DNA of 64,000 bases from Candidatus Nanopelagicus abundans. GTDB taxonomy: Bacteria; Actinomycetota; Actinomycetes; Nanopelagicales; Nanopelagicaceae. Under the pieces are notes generated by a model. It had not been told where the DNA came from, ran no database searches, and was given only the letters and a program-made list of their open reading frames with translations. A program made the translations under genes and the position numbers. The stretch's first letter is position 1, and each line of letters begins with the position of its first letter. Positions 1 to 5,858 of the stretch are shown one piece after another. The stretch lies in the NCBI RefSeq assembly GCF_002288305.1, contig NZ_CP016779.1:248001-312000 (forward strand), read 5' to 3'.

Positions 1-305
1 ATTCCAAGAGCAGCACCGAAATCTGCAACTTTATGTTTGCGTGAGAAGTGTGTGAATAGCGCAGCTACAAAGTACAGAACTAGACAAGCAGAGGCTAATA
101 CCCCAAGAGGTTTACTCCAGATACCTACAATGATGCCAAGTCCACCAGCGATTTCAAGACATGCAAGAACTGGTATTTGATTTGGTTTAACGCCAACTTT
201 AGCCATCGCTGCCATGACATCTGGTACCTTTTTAAGCTTTGAAATAGCTGATCCAATAGCGGCAAATGCAAGAAGTGCTGCGAATATGTTGAGTGCGATA
301 GTCAT
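1..305 (-). CDS. DoxX-family membrane protein, C-terminus cut by window edge
   Basis: Reading the minus strand from an ATG at 303-305 gives an open frame of 101 codons that runs off the left edge. The translation begins MTIALNIFAALLAFAAIG and has hydrophobic segments at about residues 3-18, 45-62 and 68-85. A short KKVPDVMAAMAKVG loop and the phrase LEIAGGLGIIVGIW are typical of DoxX/DoxX-like small inner-membrane proteins. Members of this family are four-helix proteins of about 120 residues and unsettled function, some linked to oxidative stress. It is divergent from the NTF2-like gene. The family call rests on pattern only. Confidence 0.65.
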   Translation of the reverse strand, partial: MTIALNIFAALLAFAAIGSAISKLKKVPDVMAAMAKVGVKPNQIPVLACLEIAGGLGIIVGIWSKPLGVLASACLVLYFVAALFTHFSRKHKVADFGAALG

Positions 306-380
306 TTATTTATCTGCTTTCTTGTTGAGGAGGTAGTTTTCTAGGAGCCTACAGCCTTGAAACACTTGAATACCAAGATT

Positions 381-408
381 CCGGCCTATAGGGCGACTCT
401 TCTTTAAT
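381..408 (+). repeat. Short direct repeat, copy 1
   Basis: The copy reads CCGGCCTATA followed by GGGCGACTCTTCTTTAAT. It lies between the DoxX gene and the NTF2-like gene. It is one of four same-strand copies in 1.4 kb; the others start at 953, 1345 and 1726. It has no internal dyad that would make it a terminator. Confidence 0.8.
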
Positions 409-479
409 TAGCCACAAATTAATCCAGTTTTTGGTTTATATTTCTTCTTACTGATAAATATTGAAAGGTCCAAAAGCGC

Positions 480-941
480 ATGCTTATATATAGTTCAATA
501 GTTGAGAAAATTGTTCGTAAAACATTTCTTGCGGTCCAGAATCATGACTATCAAGCGGTATTAAATGGTGTTTCCTCTAATAACCTCACCCATCGTTTTG
601 CAGGTCCTAACTCATTGGGCGGCATCCGACATGACAAAGAAGCACTAGGTAGATGGTTCAAAAGAGTCGGCACAGTTCTACCAGAACTTAAGTTTGATGT
701 AACAAATGTTTTAGTCCTCGGTGGGCCATGGAACACAACAGTTGTCGCCCGCTGGGTTGCCACCTGCAAACTTGAAAATGGAGAGCCATACGTAAATCCT
801 GGAATTCATGTAATCAAACTGCGTTGGGGTAAGGCATACGACTTCGATGTATATGAAGATACTTTTGCCGTGACAGTCGGGCTTGAAAAACAAGCAAAGT
901 CAGGAATTGCGGAAGCGTTAGCCCCGCAAATTGTGAGCTAA
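480..941 (+). CDS. NTF2-like (SnoaL-type) fold protein
   Basis: The 153-residue protein has the size and pattern of the SnoaL-like NTF2 superfamily: an N-terminal helix with a VQNHDYQAVLNGV phrase, a central F(A/K)..F-type helix around residues 50-65, then alternating strands including VVARWVATCKLENGEPYVNPGIHV. Members are cone-shaped barrels used as small-ligand isomerases, hydrolases or binding modules, and the substrate cannot be read here. A GAAAGG-like ribosome site sits about 10 nt before the ATG. The gene stands alone between repeat copies 1 and 2, as if it were a separate cassette. The fold call is moderately firm; the function is unknown. Confidence 0.65.
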   Translation: MLIYSSIVEKIVRKTFLAVQNHDYQAVLNGVSSNNLTHRFAGPNSLGGIRHDKEALGRWFKRVGTVLPELKFDVTNVLVLGGPWNTTVVARWVATCKLENGEPYVNPGIHVIKLRWGKAYDFDVYEDTFAVTVGLEKQAKSGIAEALAPQIVS

Positions 942-952
942 TCCAAACTTTT

Positions 953-976
953 CCGGCTTAAAGGGCGACTCTTCTT
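953..976 (+). repeat. Short direct repeat, copy 2
   Basis: The copy reads CCGGCTTAAA followed by GGGCGACTCTTCTTTT. It starts 11 nt after the stop of the NTF2-like gene and ends about 50 nt before the next gene. The 3' end diverges from copies 1 and 3 after the T-run. Confidence 0.75.
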
Positions 977-1027
977 TTCCTTGGCTGGAAATGACTTTAT
1001 TTTCAAACTCTTTGGCAGAATACGATC

Positions 1028-1333
1028 ATGTCCTACGTAGTTATTTTCCGCTCTACTCGCAACTTAGATGATGGGCATTTGTATTCTGAGTGGTCTGAAA
1101 AAATGGAGAATTTAGTTAAGACAATAGATGGCTATGAACATCATTTCGGTTTTCGAGATGCAACAAGTCGTGATGGGGTAACTGTTTCCTATTTCAGTTC
1201 TTTAGAGGCAATTTCTGAGTGGAAGAACTTAGGTGAGCACAAAGTGGCACAACAATTGGGTCGAGATTCCTTCTACGAGGAGTACTCGATTCAAGTCTGT
1301 GAAGTACTTCGGGATTATGGCTTTGAAGCATAA
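1028..1333 (+). CDS. Antibiotic biosynthesis monooxygenase (ABM) domain protein
   Basis: This 101-residue protein fits the dimeric alpha+beta ABM fold: an N-terminal strand (YVVIFRSTR), a helix with YSEWSEKMENLVKTIDGYEHHFGF, a strand with VTVSYFSSLEAISEWKNLGEH, and the C-terminal YSIQVCEVLRDYGFEA. The phrase SLEAISEWKNLGEH is close to the W-x-x-x-x-x-H signature of ABM proteins similar to YgiN/HmoA. Members are cofactor-free monooxygenases or heme/ligand-binding proteins; which applies here cannot be told. It sits between repeat copies 2 and 3 and shares no operon with a neighbour. Confidence 0.7.
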   Translation: MSYVVIFRSTRNLDDGHLYSEWSEKMENLVKTIDGYEHHFGFRDATSRDGVTVSYFSSLEAISEWKNLGEHKVAQQLGRDSFYEEYSIQVCEVLRDYGFEA

Positions 1334-1344
1334 GAGTCTTAACT

Positions 1345-1372
1345 CCGGCTTATAGGGCGACTCTTCTTTAAT
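1345..1372 (+). repeat. Short direct repeat, copy 3
   Basis: The copy reads CCGGCTTATA followed by GGGCGACTCTTCTTTAAT, differing from copy 1 by one base. It starts 11 nt after the stop of the ABM gene, the same distance that copy 2 keeps from the NTF2-like gene stop. Confidence 0.8.
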
Positions 1373-1375
1373 TTT

Positions 1376-1470
1376 AGTTACTGCGAGTAACTGAGAAATG
1401 TGTAATACTTCTGCTTCAGATGTTTGGTAGTAATTGGGACTTGGTTAATTCCAAGTCCCTTTTGCTTTTT
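1376..1470 (+). ncRNA. Possible small RNA ending in a strong terminator
   Basis: Directly after repeat copy 3 is a perfect stem AGTTACT-GCG-AGTAACT (1376-1392), then about 40 nt with little self-pairing, then a terminator hairpin at 1436-1459. Stem, free middle and Rho-independent terminator is a common small-RNA plan. The middle (1410-1430) is complementary to 1578-1598 in the tRNA-like element downstream, with 17 Watson-Crick and 4 G-U pairs and a perfect 13-nt core CAGATGTTTGGTA. No promoter could be assigned, so expression is inferred. It could also be untranslated sequence of the ABM transcript. Confidence 0.4.
1436..1470 (+). terminator. Rho-independent terminator
   Basis: A perfect 9-bp stem GGGACTTGG / CCAAGTCCC encloses the loop TTAATT and is followed by TTTTGCTTTTT. 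It can end the ABM transcript or the putative small RNA. Confidence 0.85.
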
Positions 1471-1546
1471 ACTTCAAATTTTATCCACAGAGAACGCCAC
1501 TGAATAATTTCAAAAGTTTTAAAAGCCGTAACTTCACCCTTGTGAT

Positions 1547-1621
1547 GGGGGCGTGTTGTAATTGGCAGCCTAGTCGTTTACCAAACATCTGGAGCGGGTT
1601 CAAGTCCCGTCGTCTCCACCA
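1547..1621 (+). ncRNA. tRNA-like element with acceptor stem, T-arm and CCA but poor D and anticodon arms
   Basis: GGGGGCG (1547-1553) pairs with CGTCTCC (1611-1617), giving 7 pairs of which two are G-U. A T-arm follows normal rules: GCGGG, loop TTCAAGT, CCCGT (1594-1610). A discriminator A and encoded CCA end at 1621, and the total length of 75 nt is that of a tRNA. The middle does not fold properly: the D stem would be TTGT/CTAG with one mismatch and two wobbles, and the anticodon stem GTCGT/ACATC has two mismatches around loop TTACCAA. The 3' part also resembles tmRNA 3' ends (GGA..GCGGGTTCAA..CTCCACCA). Possible readings are a degenerate tRNA, an island attachment scar, or a tRNA-like regulatory RNA. 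Confidence 0.45.
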
Positions 1622-1628
1622 CAGTCTT

Positions 1629-1715
1629 AGCTAAGGCAATTCGATCTATTGGTAATGGTCAAAAGAATTGAGTTAGCTCTGCATGGGAGGGCCTTGAGAG
1701 ATCGAGGCCCTTCTC
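1629..1715 (+). terminator. Structured trailer and terminator after the tRNA-like element
   Basis: AGCTAA-GG-CAATTC (1629-1642) pairs with GAATTG-AG-TTAGCT (1665-1678) as a 12-bp helix with a 2x2 internal loop. It is followed by the hairpin AGGGCCT / AGGCCCT (1688-1711) and a weak pyrimidine tail. This marks the end of a structured transcript starting at or before the tRNA-like element. Confidence 0.6.
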
Positions 1716-1725
1716 TAAATTTCAA

Positions 1726-1750
1726 CCTTATCGGGCGACTTTTCTTTAAA
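1726..1750 (+). repeat. Short direct repeat, copy 4 (diverged)
   Basis: The copy reads CCTTATC followed by GGGCGACTTTTCTTTAAAT. It keeps the GGGCGACT core and the TTCTTTAA end but has lost the CCGGC start. It closes the patch just before the nrdF terminator. Confidence 0.65.
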
Positions 1751-2810: not shown

Positions 2811-4955
2811 TTACAACATGCAACTTACGCAGTCAGATACTTCAGTTCCTTCAAGTGCCATTTGGCGAATACGGATGTAGTAAATAGTTTTAATTCCAGC
2901 CTTCCACGCTGATATCTGTGCTTTATTGATATCACGGGTAGTAGCTGTGTCTTTGAAAAACAAGGTTAAAGAAAGACCTTGATCAACATGTTGGGTAGCA
3001 GCTGCGTAGGTGGCAATGATCTTCTCAGGGCCAACCTCATAAGCATCCTCGTAGTACTCAACGTTTTCATTAGTTAGATATGGCGCTGGATAGTAAACCC
3101 GGCCAAGTTTTCCTTCCTTACGGATTTCAATCTTGGAAGCAACTGGGTGAATTGAGCTAGTTGAGTTGTTGATATAAGAAATAGATCCAGTTGGTGGGAC
3201 TGCTTGTAGGTTCTGGTTATAAATACCATCTTTCATAACACTAGCTTTTAGGCTCTGCCAATCTGCTTGAGTTGGAATAGCGATATTAGCTTTTGCAAAT
3301 ATTTGCTTAACTCGATCAGTCTTAGGTGCCCAAGCTTGGTCGGTATATTTGCTAAAGAACTCACCACTTGCATACTTTGATTTCTCAAAGCCGACAAATG
3401 TTTTACCACGCTCAATTGAGATGGTATTCGATGCTTTTAATGCGTGAAATAAAATTGTATAGAAGTAGATATTTGTGAAATCAATACCTTCCTCTGAACC
3501 GTAATGAATCTTTTCTCTACCGAAGTAGCCGTGCAGATTCATCTGTCCTAAGCCAATTGCATGTGACTTCTCATTACCTTCTTTAATAGAGGTAACAGAT
3601 TCAATATTACTGATATCAGATACTGCAGTAAGGGCCCTAATAGATGCCTCAACTGTTAGAGCAAAATCAGGGGAGTCCATAGTTTTTGCAATGTTTAGGG
3701 AACCTAGGTTGCAGGAGATGTCTTTACCAACGTTTTTATAACTTAGATCAGCGTTATAAGTAGTAGGAGTATTGACCTGCAAGATTTCAGAACAAAGGTT
3801 GGACATATTAATTCGGCCATCAATTGGATTTGCGCGATTTACCGTGTCCTCATAAACAATGTATGGATAGCCTGATTCAAATTGTAACTCGGCGATAGTT
3901 TGAAATAGTTGGCGGGCATTTATCGTTGTTTTATTTATACGGGTATCAGCAACCATTTCTTGATATTTCTCAGTAATTGAAATATCACTCATTGGCACGC
4001 CATAAACTCGTTCAACATCATATGGAGAAAAGAGATACATATCTTCATTATTTCTAGCTAATTCAAGAGTGATATCTGGAATTACCACACCAAGACTTAA
4101 GCTTTTAATACGAACCTTCTCATCAGCATTCTCACGCTTAGTATCTAAGAATTTAAGAATATCTGGGTGGTGAACATTTAAATAAACTGCGCCAGCACCT
4201 TGGCGGGCACCTAATTGATTTGCATAACTAAATGCATCTTCAAGCATCTTCATTACTGGAATAACACCGGAGGATTGACCCTCAATCTTCTTAATAGGGG
4301 CGCCGCTCTCACGAATATTTGTTAGTGAAAGGGCAACACCGCCACCACGCTTTGATAACTGAAGGGAGGAGTTAATGGCTCGAGCAATTGATTCCATATT
4401 ATCTTCAGTGCGAAGTAGGAAGCAGGAAACTAATTCACCGCGTTGGGCCTTGCCACTGTTTAAAAATGTAGGAGTTGCTGGTTGAAAGCGGCCAGTAATT
4501 ATTTCAGCTACTAGGGTTTTAGCACGTGCTGGATTTGCCTCAGCTAGTAGTAAGGCAACCATTACGGTGCGCTGTTCAAAGTTTTCTAGGTACTTCTTAC
4601 CATCAAAGGTTTTAAGTGCGTAGCTGGTATAAAACTTAAAGGCGCCTAAAAATGATTCAAACTCAAAATTAAATGAGGCGGCGTAATCATGGATTTCAGC
4701 TAAAAACTCTGGTGTGTATTTTGCTAGTAAATCAGCCTCGTAATACTCGTTATCTACTAAATAGGCTAAGCGTTGAGTGAGGTTATCAAAGGTAATGGTG
4801 TTATTAACAACATGATCTGAGAGATACATCTGAGCAGCCTGGCGATCCTTATCAAATTGGATCTTGCCATCTGGGCCATACAAATTAAGCATGGCATTTA
4901 GCTCGTGATAGCTGTACTTAGATTCTACCGGCTGATCAATTAAAATTGTGTCCAT
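2811..4955 (-). CDS. nrdE: Class Ib ribonucleoside-diphosphate reductase, alpha subunit
   Basis: NrdE is the catalytic subunit. The 714 residues match the class Ib size. Active-site elements are visible: [18 protein letters not shown] holds the first redox cysteine, NLCSEI carries the Asn-Cys-Glu catalytic triad with the thiyl cysteine, [12 protein letters not shown] carries the partner cysteine, and [19 protein letters not shown] is the phosphate-binding region. The C-terminus ends SDCVSCML, the CxxC shuttle that NrdH reduces. There is no N-terminal ATP-cone, as expected for class Ib. It overlaps nrdI by 16 nt. Confidence 0.97.
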
Positions 4956-5631: not shown

Positions 5632-5697
5632 TCAGGTAAGCAGATAAATCTGCTTCTAAAGCATCTCCCCGCTTTCCACGACGGGTATTACTTGCTC

Positions 5698-5786
5698 AGC
5701 ACTTGTTAGGCGATCCGACTTACTCTTTCGAGCTTACGGTTGCGGGACAGCACTAGAGTTTCACTAGTTTCCCCTATGAAGTGCTT
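5698..5786 (-). promoter_or_regulatory. Cobalamin (B12) riboswitch aptamer controlling nrdHIEF
   Basis: The minus strand has the conserved cobalamin core in order: GGGGAAACTAGTGAAACTC, then GTGCTGTCCCGCAACCGTAAGC, then AGTCGGATCGCC. A closing P1 stem AGCACTT / AAGTGCT pairs 5698-5704 with 5779-5785. These match the known aptamer consensus (GGGAA, GGTGAAA, CxGxCCCGCAACxGT, AGTCxGxxxxCC). It lies between a good -10 box and nrdH. In Streptomyces a B12 riboswitch represses the B12-independent reductase when coenzyme is available; the same logic is inferred here for a class Ib enzyme. Confidence 0.9.
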
Positions 5787-5802
5787 ACTTATTGGGAAAT
5801 GA

Positions 5803-5808
5803 ATTATA
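5803..5808 (-). promoter_or_regulatory. -10 box of the nrdHIEF promoter
   Basis: TATAAT is present on the minus strand, placing the start of transcription near 5796, about 10 nt before the aptamer P1 stem. No convincing -35 hexamer is seen at 16-18 nt. Confidence 0.6.
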
Positions 5809-5858
5809 GCCAAAAGCGGTGTCGCTACTAGGGAGGCAGAGTGGTGGCGGGTGTCTCA

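Follow-up and report, generated by a model that had tools for sequence, protein, structure and literature searches.

Tandem islands at the 3' ends of tmRNA and tRNA genes have been described before (PMC3146451, PMC7771536, PMC10872708). In Dehalococcoides, ssrA-specific islands lie in tandem downstream of the single-copy, essential tmRNA gene and are bounded by 20-bp direct repeats of the tmRNA 3' end; certain islands have no integration module and were read as possible cis-mobilizable elements joined by accretion, and the integration modules also hold a tRNA-Gly-like locus (PMC3146451). Additive flexible islands, with small cassettes beside repeats of tRNA 3' parts, are reported for Ca. Actinomarinales (PMC7771536) and for fGI-2 of Ca. 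Methylopumilus (PMC10872708), as described in the parts of those papers on which we draw. The passages on tycheposons in the latter paper describe cargo elements of 4–200 kb that have a tyrosine recombinase and a tRNA target (PMC10872708). In CIME/IME accretion, elements that keep attL and attR and have lost their integration genes stand in tandem with an integrase-bearing element (PMC5704250).

Here we describe an array behind rnpB in the Nanopelagicaceae (acI). These actinobacteria are among the most abundant freshwater bacteria, and their streamlined genomes leave little obvious mobile DNA. A first-pass annotation of the DNA had proposed that the locus may mark an undescribed mechanism in this lineage. 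This was not supported: the motif concerned is the rnpB 3' end, tandem islands at RNA gene ends are known from the work cited above, and in relatives a tyrosine integrase sits between the same repeats.

The repeat is the 3' end of rnpB

We analysed a window of 64,000 nucleotides (G000:C1 248001-312000) from the source genome G000, a single contig of 1,161,863 bases. Its first 1,750 nucleotides hold four same-direction copies of a short repeat (Table 1), as the first-pass annotation had reported; the 1726 given there for the last of them falls inside the diverged copy at 1723. The motif had also not been noticed elsewhere in the 64 kb, and an 18-mer search allowing up to three mismatches bore this out, with 4 matches against 0.06 expected and none of 100 shuffles reaching 4. 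Across the source genome, the 15-mer GGGCGACTCTTCTTT with up to two mismatches matched the plus strand at 247776, 247940, 248391, 248963, 249355 and 249733, and the remainder of the genome gave a related minus-strand copy at 241995 and three two-mismatch matches elsewhere.

A full class A RNase P RNA lies directly upstream of the window (G000:C1:247438-247789; Rfam RF00010, 311.9 bits, model positions 1-367). Because its RF00010 alignment terminates in the motif (...CCGGCUUAUAGGGCGACUCUUCUU), the repeat is the rnpB 3' end, with rnpB itself providing copy 1. Copies 1 (247776) and 2 (247940) lie upstream of the window, and the window copies are numbers 3 to 6.

A second repeat, TAGGTCAGATATGGGCGA-like, follows minus-strand genes 4-7 kb upstream of rnpB (G000:C1 240811, 242021 and 243466, equivalent to L010:811, 2021 and 3466). 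It is fused to the rnpB-type GGGCGACTCTTCT in L071:751 and L063:4328, and is possibly a related second attachment site.

Table 1. Features at the start of the window (window coordinates)
Feature	Position	Strand	Basis
DoxX_2-like unit, right part (unit start G000:C1:247930, left of the window)	1-380	.	Sequence and unit mapping
DoxX_2-like gene, runs out of the window	3-305	minus	Pfam DoxX_2, 65.6 bits
Single-gene cassette, SnoaL/NTF2-like	381-952	+	ORFs, Pfam, unit comparison
Repeat copy 3, CCGGCCTATAGGGCGACTCTTCTTTAAT; duplicated rnpB 3' end, core att-like site	381-408	+	Motif match and identity with rnpB end
SnoaL/NTF2-like gene, 153 aa	480-941	+	Pfam, 37.2 bits
Single-gene cassette, YqjZ/ABM-like	953-1344	+	Unit comparison
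Repeat copy 4, CCGGCTTAAAGGGCGACTCTTCTTTTCC	953-980	+	Motif match
YqjZ/ABM-like gene, 101 aa	1028-1333	+	phmmer to PDB 2go8, E 1.8e-13
Two-small-RNA cassette, predicted sRNA and tRNA-like RNA; homologues widespread in the family	1345-1722	+	Unit and tRNA-module comparisons
Repeat copy 5, CCGGCTTATAGGGCGACTCTTCTTTAAT; identical to rnpB end over CCGGCTTATAGGGCGACTCTTCTTT	1345-1372	+	Motif match and comparison
Palindrome GTTACTGCGAGTAAC, upstream of the -10-like element	1377-1391	+	Sequence; conserved in alignment
-10-like TAATACT	1403-1409	+	Sequence
Predicted sRNA: 13-nt antisense stretch CAGATGTTTGGTA (1417-1429), then terminator-like hairpin (1436-1459)	1417-1459	+	Module comparison, fold
TTATCCACA, DnaA-box-like, recurrent between sRNA and tRNA-like gene	1481-1489	+	Sequence, alignment
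tRNA-like gene, G3.U70, A73-CCA	1547-1621	+	ARAGORN tRNA-Gly(acc), Rfam
Antisense target TACCAAACATCTG in tRNA-like gene	1579-1591	+	Pairing
Repeat copy 6, CAACCTTATCGGGCGACTTTTCTTTAAA; diverged, array end	1723-1750	+	Motif match
Ribonucleotide reductase genes, beyond copy 6	1795-2766, 2811-4955	minus	ORF list

The array of the source genome comprises five units: behind rnpB come a 164-bp unit, a DoxX_2-like unit, a SnoaL-like unit, a YqjZ/ABM-like unit and an RNA unit, followed by the diverged copy and the ribonucleotide reductase genes. The window covers units 2 to 5 and the last copies. The first unit is geneless and carries repeated ATGGGCA-like words. Between successive window copies lies exactly one unit, as had been noted, the third of these being the one in which ARAGORN calls a tRNA-Gly(acc). 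The YqjZ/ABM-like protein (1028-1333) gave no Pfam match. A spacing of 11 nt between stop codon and next copy was confirmed for both coding units, whose stops end at 941 and 1333; it does not extend to a general rule, as other units have other spacings. Beyond the array, a cobalamin riboswitch match lies on the minus strand at window positions 5663-5811 (RF00174, 38 bits), with the ribonucleotide reductase genes further downstream on the same strand.

Small units with exact edges recur across the family

The first-pass annotation had likened the patch to gene cassettes, and had proposed searching relatives for clusters of short motif-flanked genes with variable content and aligning their junctions. 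This search found tandem single-gene units, content that varies at the rnpB locus and exact junctions. Within the genus, the 15-mer with up to one mismatch was found in 17 of 25 genomes, mostly clustered at one place. Our comparison set comprised 38 further genome stretches and at least 119 stretches of public contigs with the site pattern. Taking the 38 stretches together with 80 among the matches listed, there were 226 distinct sites, 67 of which are the rnpB end itself. Tandem rnpB 3' ends follow rnpB in many species of the family, with differing units between the copies.

Among the matches listed and the 38 stretches, 155 units were bounded on both sides by direct repeats of the 3' end of rnpB, with a median length of 566 bp (10th-90th percentile, 259-3119 bp). 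Most (110 of 155) are no longer than 1 kb, and by a mechanical count of open reading frames of at least 80 aa among the matches listed, 83 hold one and 39 hold none, so that 122 have at most one. A comparison restricted to matches covering most of a unit showed that units common to different contigs often run from a repeat into the following one. A 1138-bp unit is 99.7% identical in G004 and G005 and has different neighbours on both sides, and the YqjZ/ABM-like cassette recurs with the same edges and different neighbours in L215 (90.0%) and L160 (89.8%). Unit order also varies, with the ABM unit preceding the tRNA unit in the source genome and following it in L160. Homologues of the SnoaL/NTF2-like cassette occupy other array positions in G001 and G002, where they have a leader that is absent from the G000 copy. 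Between rnpB and this common SnoaL unit, G002 carries a 4.1-kb unit that is absent in G001, giving an occupied and an empty site in two species; a 4104-bp unit occurs at 94.6% in L198.

Beyond the genus, the distribution was as follows. Another genus of the family had the site in 17 of 17 genomes, 16 of them with at least two sites, which in three of those are partly on different contigs or far apart. In 118 genomes of the class (completeness of at least 90% requested; pattern CCGGCTTAYAGGSCGACTC, up to one mismatch), at least two copies were present in 7 of 9 family genomes, the source genome among them, whereas of the 109 others, 4 had a pair of copies on one contig no more than 20 kb apart; the criteria differ slightly inside and outside the family, and because the pattern is closest to the family's own rnpB, part of this contrast could stem from rnpB divergence elsewhere. 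In fragmented assemblies with rnpB, a contig end lay within 500 bp downstream of the gene in 13 of 23 and within 500 bp upstream in 1 of 23 (Wilcoxon p 0.014), in a set that was not randomly drawn and that leaves out genomes without a complete upstream distance. The tandem array offers an explanation for why many family assemblies break right after rnpB.

Several further loci bear on the range of the site. L080 (G038) has two full rnpB genes flanking an 8-kb unit, and one contig end of G026 (G026:C2:1076677-1082240) carries several sites along with partial matches to rnpB. The site also occurs on contigs named Ilumatobacteraceae, Phycisphaerae, Pseudobdellovibrionaceae, Chloroflexi and Dehalococcoidia (L105, L169/L208, L195, L201, L202, L205 and L210), which is likely to be misbinning. 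Of the site-bearing public contigs, some are named Nanopelagicaceae, Planktophila or Nanopelagicus, and some Bifidobacterium breve, Streptomycetaceae or Phycisphaerae; the latter are presumably misnamed or misbinned.

Tyrosine integrases occupy the same site

We searched for family integrases with an HMM built from the extra integrases of family genomes. Related integrases are present on several site-bearing contigs, at the distal end of an element in L125, L128 and L173 and beside the site in L163 and L198. The L125 element, approximately 6.6 kb long, begins at the rnpB end and carries a 375-aa integrase gene that stops directly at the following copy. Genes are arranged alike in L128, where the distal core is degenerate. 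The L173 element measures approximately 4.8 kb, and its integrase lies 33 bp short of the copy; in L163, the distance from the integrase to a copy is 308 bp. The 4.1-kb unit known from G002 is present in L198, with a truncated integrase next to it. These proteins have a Pfam Phage_integrase domain and an N-terminal SAM-like domain and match a PHROG integrase family; the site-associated integrases are 43-87% identical to the first. Their neighbours include two HTH_17 proteins that weakly match excisionases, an endonuclease-like DUF4379 protein, and a protein of 432 aa that gave no match in the domain search. Extra family integrases in L218-L224 were considered as site-linked and rejected, as no convincing site copy lies nearby; several are close to tRNA genes.

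Elements with an integrase make up only a small share of the loci seen. The window's own array has no integrase, and the PF00589 matches of the source genome are all far away: its recombinases are XerC/XerD-like proteins and a 251-aa relative 616 kb distant, a Phage_integrase-like protein at G000:C1:864482-865237 (L098:952-1707). Most family genomes have only XerC/XerD-like recombinases, so the small units would depend on an integrase supplied in trans. No phage relative of the site-associated integrase exceeded 33% identity, the rnpB-end site had no exact match in viral contigs and no match in phage records, and no circular form or attP was seen.

The ends of the units carry further shared sequence. 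Forty unit starts form one similarity cluster, many with a hairpin, then T residues, then ATGGGCA-like words, and another cluster unites 28 unit ends, many of which have GGGGGCAA-like words ahead of ...ATGTCGTCT. In 60 units of at least 700 bp, the density of TGGGCA-like words is 5.7 per kb over the first 170 bp and 2.5 over the last 170 bp, compared with 1.0 in the middle, and at least two such words are found in the first 170 bp of 16 units and the last 170 bp of 7; we read the words as candidate integrase arm sites, while unit ends may differ in composition. The first leader would presumably provide rnpB with a terminator. An arm-like leader is absent from most small units, among them the three complete ones of the window.

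rnpB as a probable attachment site

Taken together, rnpB very probably serves as attB for a family of tyrosine integrases, and the units of the window would be integrase-less elements accreted in tandem. In this model, the integrases are carried on small integrative elements of the Nanopelagicaceae, for which the rnpB 3' end would be the chromosomal attB. Each insertion would hand rnpB a fresh, equivalent 3' end and push the old one downstream, leaving rnpB intact and a direct repeat of approximately 25 bp behind. Small units could then build up in tandem behind rnpB as further insertions occur, integrase genes are lost and the repeats recombine with one another. The integrase of relatives would make the crossovers, presumably within CTTATAGGGCGACTCTTCT, integrase-less units would be mobilised in trans, and a circular intermediate and a route between cells would be involved.

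One possible alternative is that, once DNA has been taken up from relatives, homologous exchange at the short repeats and shared leaders is now the main mover, the integrase having only started the array. The restriction of most genomes to XerC/XerD-like recombinases would suit this explanation, as would the lack of an integrase in most units, and several leaders are alike between units and would provide longer homology. We nevertheless consider it unlikely: the neighbours of the 1138-bp unit differ on either side, and its identity ends within the repeat of approximately 19-25 bp, which is short for RecA-type exchange, and integrase-bearing elements do occupy the site. If the rnpB end had been duplicated locally in tandem and unrelated DNA had entered later by chance, this would account for the longer partial or whole rnpB copies in some genomes, but chance insertion fails to explain identical units with the same edges across genomes and orders, and leaves the integrase elements at the site unexplained; we regard it as very improbable.

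An integron-type cassette array with attC sites and IntI was suggested by the small single genes in tandem, each followed by a same-direction repeat, and by the variable content. The probability of this reading is slight in the extreme, as the repeat is the rnpB end and the integrase found is of the phage/ICE type with a SAM-like N-terminal domain. The first-pass annotation had itself remarked that the motif lacks the GTTRRRY core of attC; the core is indeed absent on both strands, and no integron integrase was found beside the array in a search of the source genome with PF00589. It had also named, as a finding that would speak against cassettes, a motif scattered genome-wide after unrelated genes. 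A transcription end or RNA-processing signal of that kind would be expected 3' of rnpB, and the copies do follow gene ends; yet they are nearly confined to one locus per genome, they also follow non-coding units, and the units move with exact edges at the motif, which makes such a signal just as improbable as an integron.

A unit with a tRNA-like RNA and a predicted matching antisense RNA

The RNA unit (1345-1722) contains a tRNA-like gene preceded by a predicted sRNA. The palindrome and TAATACT are presumed to be the promoter/operator of the sRNA. The tRNA-like gene scores 34.7 bits against Rfam tRNA and weakly matches tmRNA (32.3 bits, under the cut-off), resembling the tRNA-like domain of tmRNA. 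We rejected a canonical tRNA-Gly: ARAGORN calls Gly(acc), but the anticodon stem is mismatched, and the gene has G3.U70 and ACCA, which are an alanine signature. From the sequence alone, we also weighed reading the unit as a T-box or a tmRNA and adopted neither. A conserved word of the unit was found in 47 of 201 family genomes. Acceptor and T-arm checks left 41 instances, of which 35 carry G3.U70 and 35 have an ACCA end; both counts are marginal, and the 41 include some instances of another tRNA type.

The 13-nt stretch of the sRNA faces TACCA and eight further bases of the anticodon arm, and 12 or 13 of the 13 bases pair in 36 of 37 instances with an upstream candidate. In 22 distinct pairs with eight variable positions, 173 of 176 cells were paired, against a shuffled mean of 117.5 (sd 5.1, maximum 140; 20,000 shuffles); the test took the best TGG[TC][AG] stretch within 330 bp upstream of each tRNA and kept only pairs scoring at least 12, two selections that lift the observed value and have no counterpart in the shuffles, and it counted related sequences more than once. 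An earlier permutation test on 17 distinct pairs went in the same direction, with 116 of 136 cells paired against a mean of 89.6 (sd 4.3, maximum 106; 10,000 shuffles); it drew on 22 instances located through a fixed sRNA anchor, included clear mis-picks and made no best-of choice. Most cognate stretches lie approximately 130 bp upstream of the tRNA-like gene, and a few lie near -220. In a hand-assembled 14-sequence alignment with pairing taken from the G000 sequence, 98.0% of cells across the whole structure were paired, against 90.1% when shuffled and 38-58% at slid registers, and 29 cells had changed on both sides against 10.2 when shuffled; two of the five measures were not clearly above the shuffles (both-side-changed pairs, 78/500; further pair types, 381/500).

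Some units, L131, L140, L234, L249 and L250 among them, have two sRNAs, one cognate and one non-cognate, and in some cases the non-cognate sRNA matches the tRNA-like gene of another unit. At L073:1057, an sRNA stands with no matching tRNA-like gene detected downstream, and L131:7716 looks similar; L135 and L198 are truncated by contig ends. On viral contigs, the tRNA-like gene and the palindrome gave exact word matches at most, none of them with a tRNA-like gene. One fold of the tRNA-like RNA predicts a hairpin in its trailer (window 1621-1722), and the loop of this hairpin, TATTGGTAAT, could pair with the constant portion of the anticodon loop. We also noticed, by eye, a second type of tRNA-like module in which the upstream stretch matches the 3' acceptor strand of the tRNA (L069:346, L073:5760, L140:2275 and L154:3524; GGAGCTGGTGAC / GTCACCAGCTCC in two of the four).

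The pairing of a tRNA-like RNA with an antisense RNA of its own is apparently undescribed. A toxin-antitoxin or incompatibility role would fit the unit, and a regulatory or replication-control role is equally conceivable. Tentatively, and with more doubt than belief, we propose that the third unit represents an undescribed mobile two-RNA class, with a tRNA-like toxin of alanine identity and ACC anticodon and an antisense sRNA antitoxin. If charged with alanine, the tRNA-like RNA would put alanine at glycine GGU codons and so act as a toxin. The sRNA, antisense to the anticodon arm, would be the antitoxin, the address sequences diverging yet staying complementary, and extra non-cognate or orphan sRNAs might protect against other modules.

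Comparison with known systems

For the acI actinobacteria, these results provide a concrete site of gene exchange, integrase candidates and unit boundaries, and the RNA module of the third unit, with its strong covariation, is a testable RNA-RNA system. Our search of the open-licence literature found no paper naming rnpB as attB. What is new is rnpB as the target, the very small, single-gene unit size and the RNA module of the third unit; the tmRNA and tRNA precedents were already known. rnpB joins the RNA genes used as tandem landing sites, with units small enough to resemble integron cassettes.

The arrays share with the Dehalococcoides ssrA islands the tandem units behind an essential RNA gene and the repeats of its 3' end. 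The Dehalococcoides islands are larger and use a serine recombinase, whereas the acI arrays have rnpB as target, a tyrosine recombinase and mostly no gene or one gene per unit. The parts of the studies on Ca. Actinomarinales and Ca. Methylopumilus considered here likewise concern streamlined aquatic bacteria with small cassettes of variable content; the target there is a tRNA rather than rnpB, and in those parts no integrase is tied to the repeats. With tycheposons, on the passages cited, the acI units share the association of cargo with a tyrosine recombinase and an RNA gene, again among streamlined aquatic bacteria, but their attachment site is rnpB and not a tRNA, and most are below 1 kb. 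Compared with CIMEs and IMEs (PMC5704250), the acI units are far smaller and their arrays longer. Like integrons, the arrays hold single-gene cassettes in tandem at one locus and may work alike; unlike them, they have no attC and showed no IntI, and their site comes from rnpB.
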